Assembly (NCBI GenBank): GCA_944381485.1 | Contig: CALWLI010000033.1 | Span: 1-34,723 of the forward strand | DNA: 34,723 nucleotides | Direction: 5' to 3' | Source of the DNA: an uncultured Lachnospiraceae bacterium | Lineage (GTDB): Bacteria > Bacillota > Clostridia > Lachnospirales > Lachnospiraceae | Shown here: positions 4,800 through 34,723 of the stretch, piece after piece | How positions within the stretch are numbered: position 1 is the stretch's first letter | Layout: every line of letters starts with the position of its first letter | Translations under genes and position numbers: made by a program | Notes under the pieces: generated by a model | The model's database searches: none | The model's input: only the letters and a program-made list of their open reading frames with translations | Told to the model about the DNA's origin: nothing

Positions 4800-6401
4800 A
4801 TGAAAAGGATAATAACAGGAAGCCTTGCAAAAAGGGCAGACGGTTTTGCCATAAATGAGTTGGGCATACCTTCTCTGAAGCTTATGGACAGGGCTGCAGC
4901 CTCAGTGGCAAGGTATGTCATGGCACTTGCGGAGGAAGAAGGCCTCAAAAAGGACTGCGAGATAGCGGTTTTTGCGGGAGCAGGGAATAATGGGGCTGAC
5001 GGTGTGCTCTGCGCCGTAAAACTTTTGAGCGAGGGCTTTTTAAATACAGAGGTGTATTTTTGCGGAAAGCCTGAGAAGAGAAGCGAAGAGTTCGTGATAC
5101 AGCTTGATAAGCTTCGAGCCCTTGGAAGAGAGATCCGGGATTACGACAGCTTTCAGCTTTCGGAAAAGAGGCCTTCCATAGTTATAGATGCCCTGTTCGG
5201 AATAGGACTTAAGAGGGAGGTAAAGGGAGCATATGCCGGGTGCATAGAGCTTATGAACAGGATAAAGGATGAGGCGGGAGCTTACATTGTGTCAGTGGAT
5301 GTGCCCTCGGGTCTCAATTCCGATGACGGGCAAAATATGTGTCCCCGTCCTGCGGATGCGGATATTACAGTGACCTTCGGCTATGGAAAGACAGGGTTTT
5401 ATCTTAATTACGGCTATGGAAATTGTGGAGAGATATTCGTTGAGGATATAGGCTATCCGAAGGACCTTCTCTCTAAGCTTGCTTTCACAGAGGGGGAGCT
5501 CCTTTTCCTTATGGAAGAGGGAGACCTTAAAAAGCTAGGCTTGGGAGAGAGAGATCCCCGCGCAAACAAATCCGATTACGGTAAGGCAGTGCTTGCGGCA
5601 GGCTCAAGGGGAATGGCGGGAGCGGCATTTTTGAGCGGTTTGGCTGCCTTCAAGACGGGGGCAGGCATGGTAAAATATCTGGGGCCTGAGGAGAACAGGA
5701 CGATTTTGCAGACGCTTATTCCGGAGGCAATGTACGATGCTTTTACTTCGGAGGAGTCAGAGTCTGAGCTTTTCGATAAAGTAAAAGACTCTATAGCCTG
5801 GGCGGGTAGAAGAGGCTGTGTAGTCTTGGGCCCGGGACTGGGTACCGGGGAGCAGTCGAAAAAGCTTGTGAGGACAGTAGTTTCAGCACTGTCAGAGCAC
5901 AACAAAAGGGAGCCCGGATCCACTGTGTTTCTGGTGGCTGACGGTGATGCCTTAAATGTGATCTCAGGTGAGCGGGAGCTTCTTAAAGACCTTGGAGGGT
6001 TTACTGTGATAACGCCCCATGTGGGAGAGATGTCGAGACTTACAGGCAAAACCATAGGTGAAATAAAAGCTGATCCTGTGGGGGCAGCTGTAAAATTTTT
6101 CAATGACACCGGTATAAATATTATATTAAAGGACTATGTTTCTGTGGTAATAGAAACAAACAGAGAAATTTTTATAAACACCTCAGGAAATGCGGCTCTG
6201 GCAAAGGCCGGCTCAGGAGATGTGCTTACAGGCATACTTGCGGCCCTCATAATGAGAAACGGGGATCTTAAGGACTCTCTCTCTGAGGCGGCATACATCC
6301 ACGGGAGAGCCGGAGTTAAAGCGTCCGAAATAATGGGGCTTAACGGGACTTTGGCAAGGGACATAGCCCTAAGCCTGCCTTCGGTCATAGAGAGCTTTTG
6401 A
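4800..6401 (+). CDS. nnr: Bifunctional NAD(P)H-hydrate epimerase / ADP-dependent NAD(P)H-hydrate dehydratase
   Basis: Repairs damaged NADHX/NADPHX. The N-terminal YjeF-type epimerase domain (about residues 1-215) shows the AGAGNNGADG loop and SVDVPSGLNSDDG. The C-terminal ribokinase-like dehydratase domain (about 235-533) shows a VLGPGLG segment and the AKAGSGDVLTGILA active-site loop, in which the GSGD aspartate is the conserved general base region. The 533-residue length is normal for the fused form. The ATG at 4800 sits four bases after the prmA stop with GCGGG immediately upstream. Both halves look intact. Confidence 0.95.
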   Translation: MKRIITGSLAKRADGFAINELGIPSLKLMDRAAASVARYVMALAEEEGLKKDCEIAVFAGAGNNGADGVLCAVKLLSEGFLNTEVYFCGKPEKRSEEFVIQLDKLRALGREIRDYDSFQLSEKRPSIVIDALFGIGLKREVKGAYAGCIELMNRIKDEAGAYIVSVDVPSGLNSDDGQNMCPRPADADITVTFGYGKTGFYLNYGYGNCGEIFVEDIGYPKDLLSKLAFTEGELLFLMEEGDLKKLGLGERDPRANKSDYGKAVLAAGSRGMAGAAFLSGLAAFKTGAGMVKYLGPEENRTILQTLIPEAMYDAFTSEESESELFDKVKDSIAWAGRRGCVVLGPGLGTGEQSKKLVRTVVSALSEHNKREPGSTVFLVADGDALNVISGERELLKDLGGFTVITPHVGEMSRLTGKTIGEIKADPVGAAVKFFNDTGINIILKDYVSVVIETNREIFINTSGNAALAKAGSGDVLTGILAALIMRNGDLKDSLSEAAYIHGRAGVKASEIMGLNGTLARDIALSLPSVIESF

Positions 6402-6437
6402 TTATTTCAGGCTTAATAAGTTTATTTGGAGAAAGCT

Positions 6438-7208
6438 ATGCATCATTTTTTTGTAAAGGATCATCAGATATCTGAAAAGGAGATATTTATTGAAGAAGGA
6501 GATTATAACCATGCGGTAAATGTCCTGAGACTTAGATCCGGTGAGGAGATACTCATAAGCGACGAGGAGGGAAGAGACTATGTCTGCGAGGTGGGAGAAA
6601 ATGACAAGGAGCTTCAGAGACTGAGACTCTTTATAAAGGAGATGACTGAGAAAAATCATGAGCTTCCGTCAAGAGTATATCTCTTTCAGGGACTCCCAAA
6701 GTCAGACAAGATGGAGTTCATTATACAGAAGGCCACGGAGCTGGGGGTAAGTGATATCGTTCCCGTCAATATGAAAAACTGCGTGGTAAAGCTTGACGAT
6801 AAAAAGGCTGAGGCAAAGCTCAAAAGATGGCGTGCCATAGCCGAAAGCGCCGCAAAGCAGTCAAAGAGAAGTGCTGTACCTGAGATACACGATATTATGA
6901 GTTTCACCGAGGCTGTGAAGATGGCAGAGGAGATGGATCTGAGCATACTCCCCTACGAGTGCGAGGACGGCATGGCCGGAATGATAGACGCCATAGTAAA
7001 CTTTTTGCCCGGCCGCCATATTGCCGTATTCATAGGACCTGAGGGAGGCTTTGACAGGCTTGAAGTAAAGTTTGCGAGAGACAGGGGAGTCAGGACCGTA
7101 TCCCTCGGAAGGCGCATCCTACGCACCGAGACTGCGGCTCTTGCTGTGCTTTCCATGATAATGATAAGGCTTGAGATAGCGGAGCAGATGGGCTTTGACG
7201 AGGAGTAG
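6438..7208 (+). CDS. rsmE: 16S rRNA (uracil(1498)-N(3))-methyltransferase
   Basis: SPOUT-class methyltransferase that methylates U1498 in the decoding centre of 16S rRNA. Visible features are an N-terminal PUA-like domain (about residues 1-70), the LFQGLPKSDKMEFIIQKATELGV segment shortened here to its core QKATELGV, and the C-terminal knot with FIGPEGGF and LGRRILRTETA, which binds SAM. An upstream in-frame TTG at 6426 would add four residues, but the ATG at 6438 has GGAG six bases before it and gives the usual family start MHHFFV. It is 256 residues, normal for the family. It is probably the last gene of the prmA transcript; no clear terminator follows. Confidence 0.95.
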   Translation: MHHFFVKDHQISEKEIFIEEGDYNHAVNVLRLRSGEEILISDEEGRDYVCEVGENDKELQRLRLFIKEMTEKNHELPSRVYLFQGLPKSDKMEFIIQKATELGVSDIVPVNMKNCVVKLDDKKAEAKLKRWRAIAESAAKQSKRSAVPEIHDIMSFTEAVKMAEEMDLSILPYECEDGMAGMIDAIVNFLPGRHIAVFIGPEGGFDRLEVKFARDRGVRTVSLGRRILRTETAALAVLSMIMIRLEIAEQMGFDEE

Positions 7209-7289
7209 GACAGCTGAGCATTTAAAGTCCTGAGACAGGGAAAATAAGACTTAAAATACAAGAGCTTACAAAAAATATTAAAATAAATG

Positions 7290-7318
7290 TTGACAGCGCT
7301 GTCTCAGGGTGCTATAAA
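7290..7318 (+). promoter_or_regulatory. Strong promoter of the lysine riboswitch-transporter operon
   Basis: Perfect TTGACA (7290-7295), a 17-base spacer and TATAAA (7313-7318). Transcription would start near 7325, about 20 bases before the riboswitch P1 stem. The 411-base gap between rsmE and the binding protein is fully occupied by this promoter, the riboswitch and its terminator. Confidence 0.8.
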
Positions 7319-7339
7319 GTATACAAAATTCATAAAGCA

Positions 7340-7515
7340 GAAACAGATAGAGGAGCGGATTGCTAAGAGTAACCGAGTCATGGAGGCCGGCAGAGGCCGA
7401 TTCGGTGAAAGGAGACAGCCGCCGAAACCGTAACACGTCAGCCCGTGTTATGAGTTGGGCCGCAGAAATAAGATTTTGCGGACTGTCACGTCTAAGTGAA
7501 GCGCTATCAAAGGTA
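7340..7515 (+). ncRNA. Lysine riboswitch (L box) aptamer
   Basis: The leader carries the conserved islands of the lysine riboswitch in order: AGATAGAGGAGCG, AAGAGTAACC, GTGAAAGGAGACAGCCGCCG (the AGCCGCCGAA core), GAGTTGGGC, GCGGACTGTCACG and the closing AAGCGCTATC. The P1 stem pairs GATAG (7346-7350) with CTATC (7504-7508). Length and element order fit the known five-way junction. When lysine is bound, P1 is stabilised and the downstream terminator can form, shutting off the operon. Identification is from remembered consensus, not from a covariance search, but several long islands agree. Confidence 0.9.
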
Positions 7516-7550
7516 AGAGCTAAAATTCAGGATTTCATAATTTCAGAATC

Positions 7551-7590
7551 AGTACCGCGAAGTGTTTCAGAGACGCTTTGTGGTATTTTT
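7551..7590 (+). terminator. Riboswitch-controlled intrinsic terminator (expression platform)
   Basis: A 14-bp stem (7551-7564 with 7574-7587, including four G-U pairs), nine-base loop, then a T run ending at 7590. The 3' arm start CGCTTTGT (7574-7581) can instead pair with GTGAAGCG (7496-7503), which overlaps the 3' strand of riboswitch P1, giving an 8-bp antiterminator when lysine is absent. Confidence 0.82.
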
Positions 7591-7620
7591 AATTTACATA
7601 TTAACGAGGAGGAAGAAATT

Positions 7621-8517
7621 ATGAGAAGAAGGATTTTTGCAGGAATGATGGCGGCAGCCATGGTGGCAGGACTTACAGCCTGCGGCTCATCATCAGAGGC
7701 GGAGACAACAGCAGCCCAGGGAGCAGCTGAAGAGGGAACTGAGTCAGGAGCTGAGTCAGGTCTTGAGGACGGAGTGCTCAGCGTTGCCATGGAGTGCAGC
7801 TATGCTCCCTACAACTGGACACAGCAGGACGATTCAAACGGAGCTGTTCAGATCAAGGGAAGCAGCGATTACGCATACGGCTACGATGTAATGATGGCAA
7901 AGCACATAGCCGAGGCCCTCGGAGTGGACCTTGAGATAGTAAAGTCCGACTGGGATTCCCTTGTACCTGCAGTACAGTCCGGAACAGTTGACTGTGTTAT
8001 AGCAGGCCAGTCCATAACTTCAGAGAGACTTCAGTCAGTTGATTTTTCAGAGCCTTATTACTATGCATCTGTAGTGGCTGTGACAAAGAAGGATTCACCC
8101 TATGCTAACGCTCAGGGAGTATCAGATCTTGCAGGTGCCACAGTTACAAGCCAGCAGAACACCATATGGTATGACAGCTGCCTTCCCCAGATAGAGGGAG
8201 CGGATATACTTGCGGCACAGGAGTCAGCCCCCGCAATGCTTGTCGCTCTTGAGTCGGGAAGAGTGGATCTGGTGGTTACAGATATGCCCACAGCTCAGGC
8301 CGCATGCGTGGCTTACCCTGACATGGTGCTTCTCGATTTCACCGGATCTGACGATGACTTTGAGGTATCAGAGGAGGACATAAATATAGGTATATCCATG
8401 AGAAAGGGCAATTCAGCCTTAAAGGAGCAGATAGACTCAGTCCTTTCAGAGATGAATGTGGATGATTTCAATGAGATGATGGATGAGGCCATAAGCGTTC
8501 AGCCTCTTTCAGAGTAA
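7621..8517 (+). CDS. Amino-acid (probably lysine) ABC transporter substrate-binding lipoprotein
   Basis: A 298-residue periplasmic-binding-protein type 2 receptor anchored outside the membrane. The N-terminus has MRRR, a hydrophobic core and the lipobox LTAC with Cys21 as the lipidation site, then an S/E/T-rich linker to about residue 45. The rest matches polar amino-acid binding proteins: GYDVMMAKHIAEALG, AGQSITSERLQSVDFSEPYY and a C-terminal SVLSEMNVDDFNEMMDEA helix. The ATG at 7621 follows GAGGAGGAAG; longer readings upstream run through the riboswitch and are not genes. Followed by permease and ATPase genes. Substrate call of lysine rests on the riboswitch, not on the protein itself. Confidence 0.92.
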   Translation: MRRRIFAGMMAAAMVAGLTACGSSSEAETTAAQGAAEEGTESGAESGLEDGVLSVAMECSYAPYNWTQQDDSNGAVQIKGSSDYAYGYDVMMAKHIAEALGVDLEIVKSDWDSLVPAVQSGTVDCVIAGQSITSERLQSVDFSEPYYYASVVAVTKKDSPYANAQGVSDLAGATVTSQQNTIWYDSCLPQIEGADILAAQESAPAMLVALESGRVDLVVTDMPTAQAACVAYPDMVLLDFTGSDDDFEVSEEDINIGISMRKGNSALKEQIDSVLSEMNVDDFNEMMDEAISVQPLSE

Positions 8518-8553
8518 TCATTACAGCTTAAACATAGAGGAGTTTGATTAAAA

Positions 8554-9411
8554 ATGTTACCTTCAGATTTTTGGGGAAGAATAGTTTTCATATTGGAGGA
8601 GTACGGAGCCTCCTTTGCCGGCGGCATTTGGACCACCATGATCATAGCCGTGATCTCAACTGCCATAGGATGCATCATAGGCTTTGCCATAGGCATAATT
8701 CAGACCATACCCTGTGACAGGGAGGAGACTCCTGTAAAATGGGGACTACTCTCAGTCATAAAGTTTATACTGACAGCCTATGTGGAGATCTTCAGAGGTA
8801 CTCCCATGATGGTTCAGGCCATGTTTATATATTACGGCTCTGCCATGGTATTTAATATAAACATGGGAATGTGGACAGCAGCCTTCTTTATAGTATCCAT
8901 AAACACCGGAGCTTACATGGCTGAGACCGTGAGAGGAGGAATACTTTCCATAGATCCGGGACAGACAGAGGGAGCCATGGCCATAGGAATGAACCATTTT
9001 CAGACCATGATAAATGTTATACTTCCCCAGGCTCTGAGGAACATTATGCCTCAGATAGGAAACAACCTTATCATAAATATCAAGGACACATCAGTGCTTT
9101 CGGTGATAGGAGTCATGGAGCTTTTCTACACTACGAAGGGCATAGCCGGAGCTTACTATACTTACTTTGAGGCCTTCACCATAACAATGGTATTCTACTT
9201 TATTATGACCTTCATCTGCTCAAGGATACTCAGATTCATGGAGTCGAAGATGGACGGCCCTGACAATTATGAGCTGGTACAGACAGACGCTCTGGTCATG
9301 GGAGAAGGAATGCATACCTACAATCCCAAGGACAAGAATTCATATACCAACGTTGACTATAAGGCACATAAGACAGGAAATTTTAACGAGAATCAGAGGG
9401 AGGGCATGTAA
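8554..9411 (+). CDS. Amino-acid ABC transporter permease (probably lysine)
   Basis: A 285-residue inner-membrane subunit of the HisMQ/GlnP type with about five membrane segments. The cytoplasmic coupling loop reads [22 protein letters not shown], the EAA-loop signature (G-Q-x-E-A-x-x-I/L-G form) that contacts the ATPase. [13 protein letters not shown] upstream is also typical of this subfamily. The C-terminal tail of about 45 residues after the last membrane segment is hydrophilic and longer than usual. The ATG at 8554 is preceded by GGAG. Only one permease gene is present, so it should form a homodimer. It ends two bases before the ATPase start. Confidence 0.93.
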
Positions 9412-9412
9412 T

Positions 9413-10150
9413 ATGGAAAACATAATCAAGGTAAGCCATCTCCAAAAGTTTTTCGGAAAAAATCAGGTCCTTAAGGATGTGGACTTCAAGGTGGATGAGG
9501 GTGATGTGACCACCATAATAGGGGCGTCAGGCTCGGGAAAATCAACACTTTTAAGATGTATAAATCTCCTTGAGAAACCCTCGGGAGGAGAGATACTCTT
9601 CCACGGAAAGCCCATAACAGGAAAGGGCTTTGACCACTGTGGCTACAGAGCTAAGGTGGGCATGTGCTTCCAGAGCTTTAACCTCTTCAACAATATGACC
9701 GTACTTGAAAACTGTATGACAGGACCTGTCAAGGTGCTCAAAAAGTCAAGGGAGAAAGCTAAGGAGAAGGCTCTCTTCTATCTCAAGAAGGTGGGTATGG
9801 ATCCTTACATAAATGCAAAGCCCATGCAGCTCTCCGGAGGACAGAAGCAGAGAGTTGCCATAGCCAGAGCCCTTGCCATGGAGCCGGAGGTACTGCTCTT
9901 CGACGAGCCCACATCGGCTCTTGACCCACAGATGGTGGGAGAGGTGCTTTCCGTCATGAGACAGCTTGCAAAGGAAGGGCTTACTATGATCATAGTGACT
10001 CACGAGATGGCTTTTGCCAGGGATGTCTCCACCCATGTTGTGTACATGGCGGACGGTGTCATCTGTGAGGAGGGGACTCCTGAAGATATATTTGAACATC
10101 CCAAAAAAGAAAAGACAGTGGAGTTCCTTAAGAGATTCAACGAGAGATAA
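9413..10150 (+). CDS. Amino-acid ABC transporter ATP-binding protein (probably lysine)
   Basis: A 245-residue ATPase powering import. Walker [10 protein letters not shown] is at residues 37-45, the signature LSGGQ at 140-144, Walker B LLFDEP at 161-166 and the switch histidine in THEMA at 197; all key residues are intact. The closest subgroup is the GlnQ/HisP polar amino-acid ATPases. An in-frame reading opens upstream inside the permease gene, but the ATG at 9413, just after the permease stop and preceded by GAGGGAGGGC, gives the normal family start. A terminator hairpin follows directly, closing the riboswitch operon. Confidence 0.95.
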
Positions 10151-10166
10151 GAAGCTCTGTTTAAGA

Positions 10167-10200
10167 GGCCTGCAGGTGTATATTCCCTGCAGGTCTTTTA
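10167..10200 (+). terminator. Terminator of the ABC transporter operon
   Basis: GGCCTGCAGG (10167-10176) pairs with CCTGCAGGTC (10186-10195) over ten bases with one G-U pair, followed by TTTTA. Confidence 0.8.
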
Positions 10201-10251
10201 TAATAAGCGCTCCTTAAAAAAGAATGATATGTGTCCTCTTCTCTTTACAGG

Positions 10252-10280
10252 TTTACTTAATCTCTCACTGATGCTAAAAT
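10252..10280 (+). promoter_or_regulatory. Promoter for the cysteine desulfurase gene
   Basis: TTTACT (10252-10257) and TAAAAT (10275-10280) with a 17-base spacer; transcript would start near 10287, about 58 bases before the ATG. Confidence 0.5.
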
Positions 10281-10344
10281 AACTCCTGATGACTTTAAGA
10301 CATACAGATTATATATGTATAAACATAAAAAGGAAGAGATCGAT

Positions 10345-11499
10345 ATGACCGTTTATTTTGATAATGCCGCCACAACGAGAGTGGACCCCAGGGTGACAGA
10401 GCTCATGGTAAAGATAATGAATGAGGACTATGGCAATCCCTCATCAAAGTATATTATGGGGCTGACAGCCGAGAATTATATAAAGGAGGCCAAGGAGAGA
10501 ATAGCTTCAAGCCTCAAGGTAAAGCCCTCAGAGATAGTTTTTACCTCAGGAGGGACAGAGTCTGATAACATGGCTTTAATAGGAACGGCCATGGCCCGAA
10601 AAAAGAGAGGAAAACATATCATAAGCTGCAATATAGAGCATGCAGCTATCTACAAGACCTTGGAGTTTCTGGAAAAGGAAGGCTTTGAGATAAGCTTTAT
10701 AGGAGTCGACGAGAAGGGGCATGTTGACCTTGAGGAGCTTAAAAGGACAGTAAGGCCTGACACCATACTTGTGAGTATGATGTATGTGAACAATGAGATA
10801 GGGGCCATAGAGCCCATAGCCGAGGCATCACGCATAGTAAAGAGCATAAATCCCGACTGCTATTTCCACACGGATGCGATCCAGGCATATGGTAAGCTCA
10901 CCATAAGGCCGAAAAAGGAGGGCATAGACCTTTTGTCTGTCAGCAGCCACAAGATACACGGTCCTAAGGGAGTGGGCTTCATATATATAAATGAAAAAGT
11001 AAGGATAGAACCCATAATATTCGGAGGCGGGCAGCAAAAGGACATGCGCTCCGGCACAGAAAATGTTCCGGGGATAGCAGGACTGGGACTTGCGGCTGAG
11101 CTCTACTCAAAGAATCACGAGGAATATATAAAAAGGATACTTGCGGTAAAGGACCGTCTGACGGAGAGGCTTGAGAAGATAGAGGGGGTAAAGCTTAATT
11201 CTCTTAAGGGTGAGGAGAGTGCTCCCCAGATAGTAAGCGCCTCCTTTGAGGGAGTGAGAGCCGAGGTGCTTCTCCACGCTCTTGAGGATAAGGGAGTCTA
11301 TGTGTCTTCAGGTTCAGCCTGTTCCTCAAACCATCCCGCCATATCAGGAACACTTAAAGCCATAGGCGTAAAGAAGGAGCTTTTGGACAGCACCTTGAGG
11401 TTTTCCTTCGGCATATTCAATGAGCCCGGGGAAGCGGATTATTGTTCCGACTGTATAGAGGAGCTTCTTCCTGTGCTTCGGAAATACACAAGAAAATAA
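10345..11499 (+). CDS. Cysteine desulfurase (NifS/IscS family)
   Basis: PLP enzyme that takes sulfur from cysteine as a persulfide. At 384 residues, with YFDNAATT at the N-terminus, the PLP lysine in SSHKIHGPKG at residue 203 and the catalytic cysteine in SSGSACSS at residue 326. The long flexible loop with this cysteine resembles group I enzymes. An in-frame ATG at 10315 exists, but the ATG at 10345 has GGAAGAG at proper distance and gives the standard start. The next gene is thiI, so in this position it probably is the dedicated sulfur donor for 4-thiouridine, like the NifZ-ThiI pair of Bacillus; no iscU-like scaffold gene is nearby. Confidence 0.95.
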   Translation: MTVYFDNAATTRVDPRVTELMVKIMNEDYGNPSSKYIMGLTAENYIKEAKERIASSLKVKPSEIVFTSGGTESDNMALIGTAMARKKRGKHIISCNIEHAAIYKTLEFLEKEGFEISFIGVDEKGHVDLEELKRTVRPDTILVSMMYVNNEIGAIEPIAEASRIVKSINPDCYFHTDAIQAYGKLTIRPKKEGIDLLSVSSHKIHGPKGVGFIYINEKVRIEPIIFGGGQQKDMRSGTENVPGIAGLGLAAELYSKNHEEYIKRILAVKDRLTERLEKIEGVKLNSLKGEESAPQIVSASFEGVRAEVLLHALEDKGVYVSSGSACSSNHPAISGTLKAIGVKKELLDSTLRFSFGIFNEPGEADYCSDCIEELLPVLRKYTRK

Positions 11500-11500
11500 A

Positions 11501-11529
11501 TTGACAATTTTCCATGCTGCGAATATAGT
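11501..11529 (+). promoter_or_regulatory. Promoter directly upstream of thiI
   Basis: Perfect TTGACA (11501-11506), 17-base spacer and TATAGT (11524-11529), starting one base after the cysteine desulfurase stop. thiI can therefore be transcribed alone as well as by readthrough. Confidence 0.7.
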
Positions 11530-11537
11530 AGATATAC

Positions 11538-11566
11538 TGCCGCAGGGAAAGCGGCAAAATTTTTTG
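11538..11566 (+). terminator. Small hairpin plus T tract in the thiI leader
   Basis: TGCCGC (11538-11543) pairs with GCGGCA (11551-11556), followed by AAATTTTTT. It resembles a weak terminator for transcripts coming from the cysteine desulfurase gene, or an attenuator just after the thiI promoter start. The stem is only six base pairs. Confidence 0.35.
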
Positions 11567-11577
11567 AGAGGGAATAT

Positions 11578-12759
11578 ATGCGTTATCACAGCTTTTTGAT
11601 CAAATACGCCGAGATAGGCACAAAGGGAAAGAACAGATACATTTTTGAGGACGCCCTCATACATCAGATAAAGCAGCACCTTAAAAAGGTGGAGGGAGAG
11701 TTCGCCGTAGTCAAGGAGCAGGGAAGGATATATGTAAACGCAAAATCCGACTATGACTATGACGAGGTGGTGGAGGCCTTAAAGAAGGTCTTCGGAATAG
11801 TAGGCATCTGTCCTATGACTCAGCTTGCGGACGAGGGCTATGAGAAGCTCAGGCAGGAGATAGTTAAATTTATAGATGAGGAGTATCCCGACAAGCATTT
11901 TACTTTCAAGGTAAGGGCAAAGCGCACAAACAAACACTACCCTGTGACCTCTGACGAGATAAACGCGGATGTGGGATATGACATATTGACTGCCTTTCCG
12001 GAGACCAAGGTCGACGTGAGAAATCCCGAGGTGATGATACACATAGAGATAAGGCAGCAGATAAATGTTTATTCAAAGACCATAAAGGGAGCAGGAGGTA
12101 TGCCCATAGGAACCAACGGAAAGGCTATGCTTCTTCTCTCAGGCGGAATAGACAGCCCCGTAGCAGGCTATATGATAGCAAAGAGGGGAGTCATGATAGA
12201 GGCCGTATATTTCCACGCTCCGCCCTATACCTCAGAGAGGGCAAAGCAGAAGGTGGTTGACCTTGCCAAGGCCGTGGCCGGCTACTCAGGCCCCATAAAG
12301 CTCCACGTCGTAAACTTTACGGAGATACAGCTCTATATCTACGAGCAGTGCCCCCACGATGAGCTCACCATCATTATGAGAAGATATATGATGAGAATAG
12401 CTGAGAGGATAGCCGAGGAGACCGGGTGCATAGGACTCATCACAGGAGAATCCATAGGGCAGGTGGCGTCCCAGACCATGTTCTCTCTGCAGGTGACGAA
12501 CGAGGTGTGCACACTTCCTGTATACAGGCCTGTGATAGGCTTTGACAAGCAGGAGATAGTGGATGTTGCGGAGAATATAGGAACATTTGAGACAAGCATA
12601 CTCCCCTATGAGGACTGCTGTACCATATTTGTGGCAAAGCATCCCGTCACCAAGCCGAATATAAATGTTATCAAAAAATCAGAGACAAAGCTTGCTGAAA
12701 AGATAGATGAGATGATGGACACCGCGGTGAAGACAAGGGAAGAGATAATCTGCAGCTGA
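11578..12759 (+). CDS. thiI: tRNA 4-thiouridine synthase (tRNA sulfurtransferase)
   Basis: Adenylates U8 of tRNA and inserts sulfur; also linked to thiamine thiazole synthesis in some bacteria. The 393 residues comprise a ferredoxin-like/THUMP region (about 1-165) and an adenylation domain with the PP-loop SGGIDSP at residues 188-194. GESIGQVASQT is also typical. The C-terminal rhodanese domain of E. coli ThiI is absent, as is normal in Firmicutes, where the partner desulfurase hands sulfur over directly; a DCC pair is retained near residue 344. The ATG at 11578 follows GAGAGGG. A strong terminator follows. Confidence 0.95.
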   Translation: MRYHSFLIKYAEIGTKGKNRYIFEDALIHQIKQHLKKVEGEFAVVKEQGRIYVNAKSDYDYDEVVEALKKVFGIVGICPMTQLADEGYEKLRQEIVKFIDEEYPDKHFTFKVRAKRTNKHYPVTSDEINADVGYDILTAFPETKVDVRNPEVMIHIEIRQQINVYSKTIKGAGGMPIGTNGKAMLLLSGGIDSPVAGYMIAKRGVMIEAVYFHAPPYTSERAKQKVVDLAKAVAGYSGPIKLHVVNFTEIQLYIYEQCPHDELTIIMRRYMMRIAERIAEETGCIGLITGESIGQVASQTMFSLQVTNEVCTLPVYRPVIGFDKQEIVDVAENIGTFETSILPYEDCCTIFVAKHPVTKPNINVIKKSETKLAEKIDEMMDTAVKTREEIICS

Positions 12760-27676: not shown

Positions 27677-28201
27677 CTATTTTGTCTCCATCAGCTGCTT
27701 CATCACATAGGAGTATATCTTCTGGCTCTTTGCCTTCCAATTTCCCACCATATCCATGGCCTCTCTCTCATCAGGCACGGATATGTCGAAGCTTATCAGT
27801 ATGCTTTTTCCTTCCCTGACTTCACAGTGGACTATGTAATTCCTGTCATCGGTCTTATAATAGTCTGCTGTCGTTCCCACCTCCGAGCGGAGGCGGAATT
27901 TGTTGGCTTTAAGAAAATTGTCCATATCGGATTTTATAGCGGGAGATATGTCTTTTCCGAAGAAGCCGAGAGTCTCCTCCCCGTCTGAGCTTATCTCGTA
28001 CCTGGTGGAGTTTCCTATATGCCGGTCTGTTATAAGCTTTGAGTCTATGAGCTCTGAAAGGACCTGCTGAAGGGTGAAGTAGGTGGTGTATTCATTATCC
28101 AAAAAAAATCCTGTCAGCTGGCTGTTTGTAAGAGGAAAATTGACCTCGTTTAACATATATAATATCATTAATTTGTACAGAGTTATGGGTTCGGAAATCA
28201 T
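27677..28201 (-). CDS. DUF4364 family winged-helix protein
   Basis: A 174-residue protein. The N-terminal half (about 1-85) looks like a winged helix: YKLMILYMLNEVNFPLTNSQL, then a VLSELIDSKLI recognition-type helix and a RYEISSDGEETL wing. The C-terminal half is a mixed alpha/beta domain with DYYKTDDRNYIVHCEVREG. It matches DUF4364, a Clostridia family of presumed transcription regulators with no known target. GAGAGG lies upstream of the ATG at 28201. It is a single gene, divergent from the DUF5717 cluster, and could regulate it, but nothing in the sequence proves this. Confidence 0.82.
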   Translation of the reverse strand: MISEPITLYKLMILYMLNEVNFPLTNSQLTGFFLDNEYTTYFTLQQVLSELIDSKLITDRHIGNSTRYEISSDGEETLGFFGKDISPAIKSDMDNFLKANKFRLRSEVGTTADYYKTDDRNYIVHCEVREGKSILISFDISVPDEREAMDMVGNWKAKSQKIYSYVMKQLMETK

Positions 28202-28275: not shown

Positions 28276-28302
28276 ATCCTCTGACGGAGTGAAGTGAAAC
28301 AT

Positions 28303-30933
28303 ATGAAGGAAAAGATAAATCGCCTTGCAAGGGGCATTTTTGAAAACGAAATACCCGAGCCTGAATATCCTGAGCGCATAGACGCAACACTCGCCTTCGA
28401 GGGGATCTCGAGAGGCGAATTTTCTGTGTCCTGTAAAGGAAACTATCACATCAAAGGGCTTTGCTACTCGGACAATCTCAGGGTCATACCTGAGACAAAG
28501 AGCTATGTGGGGACCGTAAACAAGATAATTTACAGCGTAAATGCCTCATTTGCCCCTGCGGATTCTCTGATAGAGGGCAATTTCTTTCTTGTTACAAGCG
28601 CGGGAGAGATAAAGATACCCTATTCCTTCAGGACTCCCGCCTCATCTCTTGACAGGGCTATAGCCTCTCTGAATTCCGGAGAGGACATGGGAAGGCTTTA
28701 CAGCAAGGACCCGGAGAAGCTTCTTCTCCTTTTTGAGTGCGACGACTTTGTGAGGGCACCGTTTATGAATGACGAGAGGCTGAGAAGCCTCTATGACGGC
28801 CTCAGGGGAAGAGGAGACCGCATGCATGCCATGCAGCAGTTTATGACAGCGGCAGGCATTATGAAGAGCCCTCGTGAGGATAATACCCTCAGTTTAAAAC
28901 ATGAAAAAGAGCTTTCGGATGAGCAGAGATTTCTCATTGATAACTGCCCTGAGGATGATGAGCTTTTGGCTGAGCTCTGTTCGGAGCTCATAACAGGCAG
29001 TGTGACGGAGCCCTTTGCCTTTTATATATATGAGATCGCCATAAGAAGAGATATAAAGCTGACTCAGCTCTATGAGTATTATCTCTACTCCTGCCCGGAA
29101 GGATATAAGGGCAGGATGCCTCAGGAGGTGCTCATGTACTTTTCCTATGCCAGCGGTGTCGACAGGAGAGTGAAGGCTCCGGTATATAAAAATGTCCTCA
29201 TTTACATGAACCCGGATACGGAGATATACAGAAAATATGAGGATGATATGAGGGATTATGCCCTGGACAGTATTTTTAACAACAGAATAGATGACGATCT
29301 CGCTGTCATATATGACAGGATGATATACAGGGATATGATCGACAGAAAGGTGGCGGCCATATTTCCCTCTGTATTAAAGACCTTCCGCATTGAGTGCGAC
29401 GAGCCTTCCATGAGGCAGATCACAGTCAGATACCCTCAGCTCGAGGAGGAAGAGACATATCAGCTGAATCATGGAAAGGCCTATGTACCTGTTTATTTTG
29501 AGGACGCTCTGCTCCTTTTTACCGATGTTTACGGCAACAGATATGCGGATGTGAAGTTTGAAAAAAAGCCTGTTTTGACAAGGCCTGAGCTTTTGAGAAG
29601 ATGCTTTGATGTCTACCCTGAGCACCCTATGCTGAAGATATCAGCCGCCAAAAAGATAGTCTCGGAAGGCATAAGAGACGCAAATGACAAGGCGATACTT
29701 GAGGACGTCATGCGCAGCTTCGATTTAAACCCGGTTTTCAGAAAGAAACTCGTGTCAAGGCTAATATACTTCAGAGGCGGCACGGCATTTTTAAGCAGGG
29801 TAAACCCGGATGAGCTGGATGAGTCGGAGATAAGGGCGGTGATAGGGGATCTTTGCGGGGAGAAGAAGTATCGGGAAGTTTACCTGATGCTCAAGCGCTA
29901 TGGCACAGGACCGGCAGATGAAAAAAGCCTTTCAGAGACAGTGACAGCCCTGATAAACTCGGAGCTCATGCAGGCTGAGGATGAGGAATATTTCCTCAAT
30001 CTCTGCTATGAGGCATTCAGAGCCGGAGGAAGAAGGCCGGAGCTTCTTGATATACTCTGCAGATACTATGAGGGGCCCACTGAAAACATGTACGGTATAT
30101 TGGCCGAGGCGGTAAGGCTTGACGCCTATACCCACGGAATATGCGAGCGGCTTTTGGCTATGCAGCTTTTCAGCAACGCTTACTCCCACATTGACGAGGT
30201 GTTTAAATTTTACCTTGAGGAGGGGGACGCCAAGGAAAATATAGTCAGGGCCTACCTCACTGCAAGGAGCAGCTCCTATTTCATAGATGAAGAGAGGCCT
30301 GCGGAGGGCGTATTTGACTTTCTGGAGTCACTTTTGGAGGGGACGGGAGATTACGACAAGGCCCCTACCATATGGCTTTTGGCAGTCACCAAGCATTTTT
30401 CCGAGAGAAAGCGTCTATCAGCCAAGCAGGCTGAGCTCTGTAAGGCCCTTACAGACGTGCTTATATCGGAAGATTACGTGTTTTATTATACAAAAAAGCT
30501 GGGCAAGCTTATAGACATACCATCGGAGATAAAGAACAAGTACTATATAGAATACCACGGAAACAAATTCGCAAGACCTGAGCTCTATGTAAGGATAAAG
30601 CCTGAGGACAAGGACTTTCGCAAGGAAGAAATGAGAAGAGTGTACCAGGGTATATATGTGAAGGACATAGTGCTTTTTGCGGACGATGAGCTCAACTACA
30701 TAATCTATGACAGCTCTGTCTCCGAAGACCCGGTGGAGAAGGGCATGATATCAGGAAAGCAGGGCTCCGGAACGAGAAATGAATCGAGAGTCTCAAAGCT
30801 TGACGAGATAAGCTCCTTAAGAGGGGATAACGGGAAAATAAAAGAGCTCAGGGAGGATATGCTCTCGTATGCTCTCAAAAACGGTATGAACGAAGAGCTC
30901 TTTAAGATAAATGAGTATGATATTTTACAGTAG
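28303..30933 (+). CDS. DUF5717-like large protein of unknown function
   Basis: An 876-residue protein with no signal peptide or membrane segment. The N-terminus KEKINRLARGIFENEIP, a basic helix, and a following beta-rich domain (about 25-120; GEFSVSCKGNYHIKGLCYSD) match what I remember as DUF5717. The remainder, from about residue 125, is mostly charged helices in a repeat-like, solenoid pattern (TPR-like in style), ending in a partly disordered tail. No catalytic motif is visible. The ATG at 28303 gives the expected start; an in-frame GTG at 28294 is closer to the GGAG. The Hsp70-like gene follows after 15 bases. Confidence 0.78.
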   Translation: MKEKINRLARGIFENEIPEPEYPERIDATLAFEGISRGEFSVSCKGNYHIKGLCYSDNLRVIPETKSYVGTVNKIIYSVNASFAPADSLIEGNFFLVTSAGEIKIPYSFRTPASSLDRAIASLNSGEDMGRLYSKDPEKLLLLFECDDFVRAPFMNDERLRSLYDGLRGRGDRMHAMQQFMTAAGIMKSPREDNTLSLKHEKELSDEQRFLIDNCPEDDELLAELCSELITGSVTEPFAFYIYEIAIRRDIKLTQLYEYYLYSCPEGYKGRMPQEVLMYFSYASGVDRRVKAPVYKNVLIYMNPDTEIYRKYEDDMRDYALDSIFNNRIDDDLAVIYDRMIYRDMIDRKVAAIFPSVLKTFRIECDEPSMRQITVRYPQLEEEETYQLNHGKAYVPVYFEDALLLFTDVYGNRYADVKFEKKPVLTRPELLRRCFDVYPEHPMLKISAAKKIVSEGIRDANDKAILEDVMRSFDLNPVFRKKLVSRLIYFRGGTAFLSRVNPDELDESEIRAVIGDLCGEKKYREVYLMLKRYGTGPADEKSLSETVTALINSELMQAEDEEYFLNLCYEAFRAGGRRPELLDILCRYYEGPTENMYGILAEAVRLDAYTHGICERLLAMQLFSNAYSHIDEVFKFYLEEGDAKENIVRAYLTARSSSYFIDEERPAEGVFDFLESLLEGTGDYDKAPTIWLLAVTKHFSERKRLSAKQAELCKALTDVLISEDYVFYYTKKLGKLIDIPSEIKNKYYIEYHGNKFARPELYVRIKPEDKDFRKEEMRRVYQGIYVKDIVLFADDELNYIIYDSSVSEDPVEKGMISGKQGSGTRNESRVSKLDEISSLRGDNGKIKELREDMLSYALKNGMNEELFKINEYDILQ

Positions 30934-30948
30934 AATTGGAATGATGTG

Positions 30949-32178
30949 ATGAGTATTGCTTTAGGTATAGATCTCTGCAATGATTACACTATATGCAGAG
31001 CTTTCGGAACAAAAGACGATGAGTTTGTAGCCCTGCCGACAGTGGTCTGCAAGAATAAGCATACCGGAGAGTGGGAGATAGGCGAGGAGGCTTATCGCAT
31101 GGCTCTCTCAGGTGATGGAGTCATAGTAGACAAACTCTTAAAGCTGGCAAAGAAGAACGGCACAGCCACCATAGAGGATGTTAAATATGAGGCCTCCGAG
31201 CTTCTCAAGATATATTTGGGGAAGCTGATAGACGCCTGCCTTAAAAGCACCGGGCAGACGGAGGTGTCTTTTCTCGTAGTCACTATAAAAGAGCTTAATA
31301 AGATTCTTATGGACACTATAAAGGATGCGGGAGATTCTGTAGGCATAGCCCCCGGAAGGATACGAATCATAAGCCATGCGGAAAGCTTTGTGTATTATGT
31401 GCTCAGCGGACCCAAGGACCTCTACAACAATCAGGTAGCCCTCTTTGACTGCTCCTCATATAATTTGAGATACTATGAGATGAAGGTCATGAGAGGAGTT
31501 AAAAATGTAAGTGTAATAGCCGAGGGGAAGTCTTTGGAGGAGGCCTTTAACACTGACATCCTCAAGAACGAGGCGGGCAGAAAGCTGGCGGACCACATAC
31601 TCAGGTCCTGCGCAGAAAAGCTGATGTCAAAAAAGATATATTCATCTGTATTTTTGACAGGAGAGGCCTTCGATGATGCCGACTGGGCGGACGATTTCTT
31701 CAAGTTTATATGCAGCAGGAGAAGGGTGGGAATTGAGAAAAGCCTATTTGCCTTGGGCGCTGCCGCAAGAGCTGATGATCTGAGCCACGGCGGAGTGAAT
31801 TTCCCCTATGCCGTGATATGTGAGGGGAACCTGCCTGTAAACATAAGCCTGCAGGTGACGACAGGAGAGCAGGAGTCAAGGCTTCTTCTGGCGGGAGCGG
31901 GAGATTCCTGGTATGAGACAAGAGGACATGTGGAATTGATACCTGCAGGGCAGGACTATATTGACCTTCACATTGAAGCCGCGGACAAAAACCACAGAAC
32001 AAGGCTTATAAGGATACCCTTGGAGGGATTCCCTGAGAGGCCTGACAGGACTACAAGGCTTAGCCTTGACCTGAGCTTCCCGGATGCGGAAAAAATGGAG
32101 GTAAACATCACTGATATGGGATTCGGAGACCTCTATCCCAAGTCCGATTCATTTATTCACGAGGAGATAGATTTATAA
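30949..32178 (+). CDS. Degenerate Hsp70-like protein (DUF5716-like)
   Basis: A 409-residue protein built like an Hsp70. GIDL at 6-9 opens the actin-type fold, but the first phosphate loop reads LCNDYT instead of LGTTNS; the second, FDCSSYN (167-173), lacks the DLGGGT glycines; the adenosine motif is TGEAF (237-241) instead of GGSTR. A substrate-binding beta-sandwich follows (about 293-400) with LSLDLSFPDAEKMEV and GFGDLYP, resembling the Hsp70 end. Nucleotide hydrolysis is therefore doubtful. The linker and helical lid are absent. The ATG at 30949 follows GGA; a GTG at 30946 is in frame. Overlaps the next gene by one base. Confidence 0.75.
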   Translation: MSIALGIDLCNDYTICRAFGTKDDEFVALPTVVCKNKHTGEWEIGEEAYRMALSGDGVIVDKLLKLAKKNGTATIEDVKYEASELLKIYLGKLIDACLKSTGQTEVSFLVVTIKELNKILMDTIKDAGDSVGIAPGRIRIISHAESFVYYVLSGPKDLYNNQVALFDCSSYNLRYYEMKVMRGVKNVSVIAEGKSLEEAFNTDILKNEAGRKLADHILRSCAEKLMSKKIYSSVFLTGEAFDDADWADDFFKFICSRRRVGIEKSLFALGAAARADDLSHGGVNFPYAVICEGNLPVNISLQVTTGEQESRLLLAGAGDSWYETRGHVELIPAGQDYIDLHIEAADKNHRTRLIRIPLEGFPERPDRTTRLSLDLSFPDAEKMEVNITDMGFGDLYPKSDSFIHEEIDL

Positions 32179-32990
32179 TGTCATTGCTTTTATGCAGAAA
32201 CTGCGCCGCCCGCCCTTTTTACATCGAAAAGGCGGATCTGCGCATTTACTCTCTTCAGGAGCTCTGCTTTATCATATATAATTATCCTCTCATAATCACA
32301 GAGGATTTTATTAGTGAGGAGTTGGTCTCATGGATAAGAAATGAGCTTTCCATGGGCAGGCTTTCAGAGCGGATAAAAAGACTTTTGGAGGCGGAGGAGA
32401 GTCAGGAAAACATACTTTACCTGATGCTGAGAGAGGGGAATTACTACAACATAGATGAGATAAATGCGTTTAAACAGAGATTCGTAAAGCTTAAGAACCT
32501 GCCGGAGGAGAGGCTCCTTCAGGCTACAGCTTCCACATACTTTAAGCTTAAGAGGTTTGCAGAGGCCTGTGATATATTTACGGAAATCGACAGGAAGCTT
32601 AGAGACAGGATAAAAAAGGCCAAAACCGAGGAGAGAAACGAGCTTTTTTCAAAGCTTTCAGATACGGTATGCGACGAGGCTGTATGTAAGCTCAGGCTCT
32701 TTGACGATGAGGGGGCAAAGAAGCTCCTTATAGAGGGAGCTGAGATGGCTGAGAATTCCAAGTGCGGCAAATATCTGTTTCTTTTGGACGAAAAGTCAGG
32801 TGCCAAGTATGTTGCGGATGAAGAGAAGGCAAAGCTCAGAGAACTCAGGGAGGAAGCCCGCAAGAAGGCAATGCTTGGGGAAGGATATAAGCGAGTCACC
32901 GATATATTTGAGAAGGACTCGATAAAGAGGGATGAGGAGATAAAAAAGCTTATCTCCGAATGGAAAAGCGTATACAGAAAGATGGTATAA
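32178..32990 (+). CDS. Small helical-repeat protein, third member of the DUF5717 cluster
   Basis: A 270-residue soluble protein of unknown function. The N-terminus MSLLLCRNCAARPFYIEKA has a CxxC and leads into IYSLQELCFIIYNYP, a stretch I recall from many Lachnospiraceae proteins in the same setting. Residues about 100-180 look TPR-like (a helix pair with ATASTYFKLKRFAEACDIF). The end is highly charged helix, possible coiled coil (about 205-265). Its start overlaps the stop of the Hsp70-like gene (TAATG), so the two are translationally coupled. valS follows 61 bases downstream. Confidence 0.75.
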   Translation: MSLLLCRNCAARPFYIEKADLRIYSLQELCFIIYNYPLIITEDFISEELVSWIRNELSMGRLSERIKRLLEAEESQENILYLMLREGNYYNIDEINAFKQRFVKLKNLPEERLLQATASTYFKLKRFAEACDIFTEIDRKLRDRIKKAKTEERNELFSKLSDTVCDEAVCKLRLFDDEGAKKLLIEGAEMAENSKCGKYLFLLDEKSGAKYVADEEKAKLRELREEARKKAMLGEGYKRVTDIFEKDSIKRDEEIKKLISEWKSVYRKMV

Positions 32991-33051: not shown

Positions 33052-34723
33052 ATGAAAGAACTTGCTAAGACCTACGATCCTCAGGAGATGGAACCGAGGA
33101 TATATGATAACTGGCTTAAGAAGGGATATTTCCATGCGGACGTAAACTCCGACAAAAAGCCCTTCTCCGTTATGATGCCCCCGCCCAACGTGACGGGACA
33201 GCTTCACATGGGGCACGCCCTTGACAATACTCTTCAGGACAGCATTTGCCGCTTTAAGAGAATGCAGGGCTATGAGGTGCTGTGGCAGCCGGGAACGGAC
33301 CATGCGGCCATAGCCACCGAGGTCAAGGTCATAAACAAGCTCAAATCCGAGGGGAAGGACAAGCACGAGCTGGGAAGAGAGGGCTTTCTCAAGGAGGCCT
33401 GGGCCTGGAAGGAGGAGTATGAGAGCCGCATCTTAAAACAGATGCATAAGATGGGAGCGGGAGCCGACTGGGAAAGAAAGCGCTTTACCATGGATGAGGG
33501 CTGCTCCGAGGCCGTAAAGAAGGTATTTATAGATCTCTACAACAAGGGATATATATATAAGGGAAACCGTATCATAAACTGGTGCCCTGTCTGCAAGACC
33601 TCCATATCAGATGCAGAGGTGATCCATGAGGATCAGGACGGATTTTTCTGGCACATAAACTACCCCATAGCAGGAGAGCCGGGAAAGTATGTGGAGATCG
33701 CCACTACAAGGCCTGAGACCATGCTTGGGGACACAGCTGTAGCTGTAAATCCTGAGGATGAGAGATATAAGGACCTTATAGGAAAGACCTTAAAGCTTCC
33801 TCTCACAGACAGGGAGATACCTGTCATAGCCGACGAGTACGTGGACAAGGAGTTCGGTACGGGCTGCGTAAAGATAACACCGGCCCATGACCCTAACGAC
33901 TTCGAGGTGGGAAGAAGACATGACCTTCCCGAGATCTGTATAATGAACGACGACGCCACCATAAACTGCCCCGGATCAAAGTACGACGGCATGGACAGAT
34001 ACGAGGCGAGAAAGCTCATGGTGGAGGACTTAAAGGCTGAGGGACTTCTGGTAAAGGTGGTTCCTCACAGCCACAGCGTGGGTACCCATGACCGCTGCGG
34101 AACCACTGTTGAGCCCATGGTAAAGCCTCAGTGGTTCGTAAAGATGGATAAGTTCGCAAAGGACTGCAAGGATGCCCTCTCCACAGGAGAGCTCAAATTC
34201 GTCCCTGAAAACTATGCGAAGACCTATATACATTGGCTGGACAATATCAAGGACTGGTGCATAAGCAGACAGCTCTGGTGGGGACACAGAATACCTGCCT
34301 ACTACTGCGATAAGTGCGGAAAGCTGATAGTTGCCGAGGATATGCCTGACATCTGTCCCGACTGCGGGGGAACTCATTTTACTCAGGATGAGGATACCCT
34401 TGACACCTGGTTCTCATCAGCACTCTGGCCCTTCAGCACTCTGGGCTGGCCTGAGGAGACTCCCGAGTTCAAGAAGTTTTATCCCACGAATGTCCTTGTG
34501 ACAGGCTACGACATAATATTCTTCTGGGTAATAAGGATGGTATTCTCAGGGATAGAGCACACCGGAAAGTGTCCCTTCAACACAGTGCTCATGCATGGGC
34601 TTGTGAGGGATTCTCAGGGAAGGAAGATGAGTAAGTCCCTCGGAAACGGAATAGATCCCCTGGAGGTAGTGGACAAGTACGGTGCCGATGCCCTGAGGGC
34701 GGCACTTCTCACAGGAAACTCTC
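33052..34723 (+). CDS. valS: Valine--tRNA ligase, C-terminus beyond window
   Basis: Class I aminoacyl-tRNA synthetase. Visible are the HIGH-type motif HMGH at residues 52-55, the CP1 editing domain, with [17 protein letters not shown], the [17 protein letters not shown] segment (core [10 protein letters not shown]) and KMSKS at 525-529. About 557 of roughly 880 residues are inside the window; anticodon-binding and coiled-coil parts are cut. The ATG at 33052 follows GAGGAG. No T-box is visible in the 61-base gap, so it probably relies on readthrough from the cluster or a promoter I cannot identify. Confidence 0.97.

Follow-up and report, generated by a model that had tools for sequence, protein, structure and literature searches.

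We analysed a 34,723-nucleotide stretch of DNA from an uncultured Lachnospiraceae bacterium (GenBank assembly GCA_944381485.1, contig CALWLI010000033.1; the whole stretch is hereafter called the window), in which three tightly packed genes form a conserved trio: A (DUF5717), B (DUF5716) and C, which belongs to an unnamed family. With moderate confidence, we consider the trio to be the core kept from a dedicated Hsp70/GrpE chaperone operon, in which B, a pseudo-Hsp70, would be held by A and C in a non-hydrolysing complex. The genes of the trio are:

28303..30933, plus strand: gene A, DUF5717, 876 amino acids (reading frame and Pfam)
30949..32178, plus strand: gene B, DUF5716, 409 amino acids (reading frame and Pfam)
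32178..32990, plus strand: gene C, unnamed family, 270 amino acids (reading frame)

The distribution of these genes was analyzed across the window's family, the Lachnospiraceae, with 120 genomes representing 119 genera; one of them, G117, shares the genus of the window's genome. DUF5717 was found in 116 and DUF5716 in 117 of the 120, and the C profile gave 117 matches, one of which (G029) was a weak match to the tetratricopeptide repeats (TPR) only, leaving 116. The three genes were contiguous, on the same strand and in the same order in 112/120 genomes, a linkage far above chance. This result agrees with a previous sequence-only reading of the window, which had noted that DUF5717 and DUF5716 recur together in Lachnospiraceae, and the neighbourhood search found the genes together rather than scattered independently, the latter being the outcome which that reading had named as contrary to a joint system. 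A, B and C were all missing from G029, G091 and G098, and G020 had B only; in G009 and G055, A was on a separate contig, and the match to B or A lay where a contig ends. The trio is single-copy and near-universal in the family. In 60 stretches from 59 family genomes, selected among the strongest and the poorest DUF5716 matches, B and C were joined in one open frame in four loci (G067, G025, G043 and G071). When the window was compared with locus L001, protein identities were 0.73 (A), 0.83 (B) and 0.67 (C), and the ratio of nonsynonymous to synonymous substitution rates (dN/dS) was 0.069 for A and 0.054 for B; dS was saturated, and for C it was not computable. These data indicate that A, B and C are inherited and retained jointly under purifying selection.

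Beyond the family, a draw of 245 genomes from the class had DUF5716 in nine, all from the window's family, and the A profile detected the same nine plus two weak partial matches; within the order, this draw had only two genomes that were not of the window's family. Among 146 genomes drawn from the order, 75 had DUF5717, 15 from the window's family and 60 from other families. Neither DUF5717 nor DUF5716 was found in any of 14 control genomes.

The larger operon was observed in 20 stretches, from 20 of the 60 DUF5717-matching genomes outside the window's family. Its gene order is N, A, Hsp70a, the GrpE-like gene G, B, Hsp70b, the Hsp70-vWA gene V, C and sometimes a gene for the membrane protein D. 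N is a separate protein equivalent to residues 1-290 of the A protein of the window's family, and it lies upstream of A in most loci. Hsp70a (about 558 amino acids) followed A in 18/20 loci. G, which has a C-terminal GrpE domain, was present by position in 16/20 and matched PF01025 over the cut-off in the four loci scanned (L140, L142, L144 and L149). The B homologue was present by position in 17/20, 16 of them with a B-profile match and L159 by position only. Hsp70b came next, in the stretches long enough to reach it, and V and then a C homologue followed in 10 of 11 downstream stretches; C was split in L167, and L171 had neither. D came after C in L167, L170 and L175, and valS after D in L167 and L170; in the window, valS follows C. 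The C gene was found in 12/12 DUF5717-positive order genomes checked (G480 being a weak positive) and in 0/5 DUF5717-negative ones, where a TPR-only match in G369 (1.5e-7, profile positions 113-184) was scored negative. From this set, the window's family retains A, with N and A fused, B and C, plus D in 52/120 genomes. The sequence-only reading of the trio could not reveal that the relatives' Hsp70 and GrpE genes are missing from the window's cluster.

Reduced loci were also found in other families. In L152 (G376), the region 5816-10915 contained N, A and B followed by WecG, YitT and SecA genes, with no Hsp70a, GrpE-like gene or Hsp70b. The only full Hsp70 of G376 is DnaK, its C gene is on a separate contig, and it belongs to another family (f87), which also has full operons. 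The reduction looks independent of that in the window's family. A WecG/TagA-type glycosyltransferase gene stood after B in both reduced loci L142 (G430) and L152, and an S41 peptidase gene lay between A and Hsp70a in L141 (5644-7107). N was joined to A in L144 (G425), and frames of 1,332-1,335 amino acids like that of L144 were seen in G396, G434 and G451, so that N-A frames also exist outside the window's family. The joining in these four genomes is perhaps a separate fusion event.

Next, the B protein was compared with Hsp70. The window's B is a member of PF18980 (DUF5716_C; 293 bits, 2.1e-87, cut-off 34.7). On its own it gave no match to PF00012 in Pfam; the family B profile matched the nucleotide-binding domain of DnaK in the PDB (E 7.8e-7, residues 8-195), indicating homology with Hsp70. 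The half of this profile corresponding to the beta part of the substrate-binding domain (SBD-beta) was not significant against DnaK in the PDB. When compared with the end of Hsp70b, the C-terminal half of the profile matched in 9/9 cases (E 7e-6 to 1e-10), identifying it as SBD-beta like; B fills about 80 of the 110 DnaK columns 391-500, and this half has motifs conserved across the family. Regarding the lid (SBD-alpha), a mean of 4.7 residues of B aligned to DnaK 506-625 in 56 B sequences, so that no lid was recognized, and the DnaK-lid alignment was poor for every operon Hsp70.

Catalytic residues were scored on an alignment with the DnaK of the window's genome, with 56 family B and 17 order-level B rows; we take the DnaK numbering to be D8, K70, E171 and T199, with GGGT as the phosphate-2 loop. 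The GGGT loop was found at its alignment position in 0/56 family and 0/17 order-level B, and the letters GGGT occurred elsewhere in the protein in one of the 56. The equivalent of K70 was likewise found in 0/56 and 0/17, that of E171 in 0/56 and 1/17, and that of T199 in 2/56 and 0/17; D8 was retained in 48/56 and 15/17. All five features were retained in Hsp70a (18/18), Hsp70b (9/9) and the single V aligned. In a quick tree of 59 rows, which included 12 of the 56 family B, all B proteins fell on one branch next to Hsp70b, with the family B within it and L140 closest, and the B branch lengths pointed to fast sequence change. Collectively, profile, tree and residue alignment indicate that B descends from Hsp70, and that it has neither a lid nor the residues needed for ATP hydrolysis, in line with the degenerate Hsp70 of the sequence-only reading. 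A structure model of B built from two sequences had a pLDDT of 35.5. The idea of an EEVD-like tail of B read by the TPR of C was rejected, because EExD was present within the last 10 residues in 3/56 sequences.

The C protein has a conserved N-terminal domain (about residues 10-108) and a TPR region (about 109-230). Against Pfam, the window's C gave nothing over the cut-off, TPR_2 included, while TPR_2 was matched in 16/29 family C proteins. The C profile matched solved TPR structures, and residues 109-236 of the C model aligned to TPR domains with Z up to 13.7, in support of a TPR fold for this region. A Foldseek search of the model gave no match at E 0.001 or better, the best being E 0.021. 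Since the VIA-align rows mainly covered residues 36-236, no fold is claimed for the first 35 residues. The C profile also matched the last TPR gene of the larger operon in nine loci (E 4e-25 to 3e-38), and the first 118 residues alone, with the TPRs excluded, matched it with a probability of 99.3. These matches indicate that C derives from that gene and not from the GrpE-like G, which lies on the same side of B; the latter origin was rejected, with an hhalign probability of 0.1 against 16 G sequences. The sequence-only reading had described C as TPR-like with a CxxC start: the TPR part stood up in both profiles and model, but CxxC was present in 1/52 C proteins, and is therefore no feature of the family. 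A zinc or redox site at this motif was accordingly rejected.

Gene A is a member of PF18984 (423 bits, 2.2e-126) and PF18983 (216 bits, 9.3e-64), both with cut-offs of 25. It consists of a beta-rich N-terminal domain, a TPR-like alpha solenoid, as in the sequence-only reading, and the PF18983 domain; the N-terminal domain gave no match below E 0.2 in the PDB. The window's A is a shortened form, the usual family frames having about 1,180-1,230 amino acids: about 310 of 1,184 core columns are missing, all in mid-protein, and the A of the congener (L087) is equally long. A GTG at 28294 is another possible start. An NCBIfam scan of A, B and C gave no meaningful match for any of them.

The product of gene D is a coiled-coil protein, for which one or two membrane segments were predicted in 29/29 sequences. 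An example is:

10677-11867 of locus L063: gene D, coiled coil, follows C

D was strongly matched in the 52 family genomes mentioned above, and two more weak matches were dropped. It adjoins C in 51 by coordinates, and in G092 it lies next to a second C piece on a separate contig. Neither the window's genome nor G117 yielded D in a genome-wide search.

Other Hsp70 genes were then sought in 25 trio-bearing family genomes. Among the matches listed, 16/25 had no long Hsp70 frame except DnaK; the remaining short frames were named MreB-size from their length and position, and one further weak match outside those listed was present in each of G003 and G060. An additional Hsp70 was present in the other nine (G000, G008, G028, G033, G043, G046, G054, G070 and G111). 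The operon Hsp70s were present in all five larger-operon genomes checked, and no operon-type Hsp70 was among the matches listed for five DUF5717-free order genomes (G363, G369, G375, G380 and G385). The window's genome has a canonical DnaK with GrpE beside it, in genes separate from the trio. A second GrpE (202 amino acids), a short Hsp70 (551 amino acids), a small membrane protein and a 620-amino-acid protein are encoded on its contig C19 (L166, 2270-6842); the N-terminus of the last is J-like by eye, with no Pfam match. The view of this Hsp70-GrpE pair as a relocated operon part was unsupported, as the quick tree sets this Hsp70 outside the operon Hsp70s and no second Hsp70 was found in G117.

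The trio is flanked in the window by the following genes:

27677-28201, minus strand: DUF4364, upstream flank of the trio
33052..34722, running beyond the window end, plus strand: valS, a neighbour outside the system

The spacing between A and B is 15 bases, and B and C share one base (TAATG), so the tight packing and flanks originally reported were reproduced. The GC content was 0.464 for the trio and 0.466 for the window, which gives no compositional hint of transfer, again as first read. In the 60 stretches, DUF4364 was the nearest upstream gene in four and valS came immediately after C, or after a B-C fusion, in 11. Elsewhere in the window, a lysine riboswitch (RF00168, 86.4 bits) was detected at 7340-7514, upstream of an open reading frame in the 7360-8517 region.

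In the mechanism that we propose, the ancestral operon would have lost Hsp70a, G, Hsp70b and V in the window's family, while N+A, B and C stayed, with D in about half of the genomes. A, with its beta domains and solenoid, and C, with its TPRs, would hold B in one complex. That the three proteins act as one complex had been suggested before; the B-C fusions, and an operon in which the homologues accompany a GrpE-like protein and Hsp70s of the active type, support it indirectly, and the complex itself is still a deduction. B would be its non-hydrolysing subunit, whose open SBD-beta may weakly bind client or partner peptide in the manner of Ssz1. The trio might then pass clients to the housekeeping DnaK or act as a scaffold that needs no ATP; in genomes with D, its site would be near the membrane.

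Ssz1, of the yeast ribosome-associated complex, offers the closest logic. According to PMC7083937, it is lidless and binds ATP without hydrolysis, and its substrate-binding domain takes nascent chains and hands them to the active Hsp70 Ssb. Both Ssz1 and B are lidless Hsp70 relatives with an SBD-beta, and a non-hydrolysing subunit that is held by a partner and works beside an active Hsp70, as described for Ssz1, is what we propose for B. The two also differ: the partner of Ssz1, Zuo1, is a J-domain protein, whereas A, B and C had no J-domain match in Pfam at E up to 1, and Ssz1 is reported to bind ATP (PMC7083937), which B may or may not do. Kinship is claimed no further than the Hsp70 superfamily. 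Hsp110 and Grp170 are, like B, degenerate Hsp70 relatives, and PMC4753570 has them working with an active Hsp70; it also gives Hsp110 an alpha-helix bundle domain and beta-sandwich insertions, whereas B is lidless and has no recognizable bundle. With the DnaK-DnaJ-GrpE system, the larger operon shares Hsp70 homologues (B, Hsp70a, Hsp70b and V) and a G that matches PF01025; it differs in having several lidless Hsp70s, including a dead one, together with proteins of the vWA, TPR and solenoid types, and the trio differs in having neither ATPase nor GrpE.

Several observations weigh against this explanation. A lies away from B-C in G039 and C lies away in G084, so A and C can be split apart. As neither the window's genome nor its congener has D, a location at the membrane would not hold generally. 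The tree is quick and flags long branches, most of all that of L159; a resemblance to TPR is commonplace, and Foldseek gave nothing for C below E 0.001. Another Hsp70 is present in 9/25 genomes, the window's included, so an unlinked active partner is possible, and the shared complex and its cell role are read from gene sequences.

Other explanations were weighed against the same data. B could be a rigid ASKHA-fold platform for the solenoids of A and C, making the cluster a cytoskeletal or structural scaffold that neither acts as a chaperone nor handles clients. The total catalytic loss, the fast change of B, the repeat-scaffold nature of A and C and the predicted membrane segments of D would all suit this proposal, which we nonetheless find unlikely, though conceivable: the SBD-beta like half of B is conserved, with its motifs, throughout the family, and the relatives adjoin a GrpE-like gene and three genes of the Hsp70 type. 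It is unlikely as well that B serves the housekeeping DnaK as a bacterial nucleotide exchange factor of the Hsp110 kind, to which A and C would be adaptors. This reading has a eukaryotic precedent, in which an active Hsp70 is acted upon by a degenerate one (PMC4753570), and in the 16/25 genomes where DnaK was the sole long Hsp70 among the matches listed, it would be the only Hsp70 partner. However, the window's genome retains a canonical GrpE next to DnaK; the order-level operon holds B alongside a GrpE-like protein, which argues that B did not arise as a GrpE replacement; and the helix-bundle domain that PMC4753570 gives to Hsp110 is missing from B.

It is very improbable that A, B and C are merely co-transcribed housekeeping genes without a joint function. 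Compact operons can unite unrelated genes, and valS stands right after C in 11/60 loci; yet the order is fixed in 112/120 genomes of 119 genera despite changing flanks, B and C are occasionally fused, and A and C are present or absent together. An anti-phage or mobile defence module can be almost dismissed. Defence islands often have multi-gene sets with repeat scaffolds and ATPases, and the Hsp70 parts of the larger operon weakly matched one PADLOC candidate model (2e-5 and 7e-7), but A, B and C had no PADLOC match at E 0.01. The composition of the trio is like that of the window, and its single-copy, near-universal occurrence in the family weighs against such a module. When B was used as the query, a contig scan gave one locus, whereas a plasmid search and a single viral-contig scan gave none.

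A literature search, with subscription papers and preprints outside its scope, returned no study of the DUF5717 or DUF5716 families or of their combination; the two names occurred in one paper whose title points to an unrelated topic. In Pfam, DUF5717 and DUF5716_C are uncharacterised families; what is new here is their connection to an Hsp70/GrpE operon, the recognition of B as a pseudo-Hsp70 and the member C. Within the literature searched, the larger operon, with three Hsp70-type genes that have catalytic motifs where checked, a dead Hsp70 and GrpE-like, vWA, TPR and solenoid proteins, is an undescribed combination. Its connection to the trio makes two uncharacterised families and one unnamed family a testable system, and the trio provides a natural experiment, which asks whether the function of an Hsp70 machine can outlast the loss of ATP hydrolysis. 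As a tentative and bolder possibility, of which we are doubtful, a chaperone stripped of its engines might be a core Lachnospiraceae machine, a pseudo-Hsp70 complex whose client handling came from a multi-Hsp70 operon of nine genes, and an ATP-free or DnaK-borrowing counterpart of Ssz1 or Hsp110, with the stripping having occurred at least twice. The engines seem to have been lost, yet the dead Hsp70 and its scaffolds were kept, suggesting that the trio, whose DUF5717 and DUF5716 genes occur once per genome and almost throughout this dominant family of gut bacteria, probably does an important and undescribed job there.

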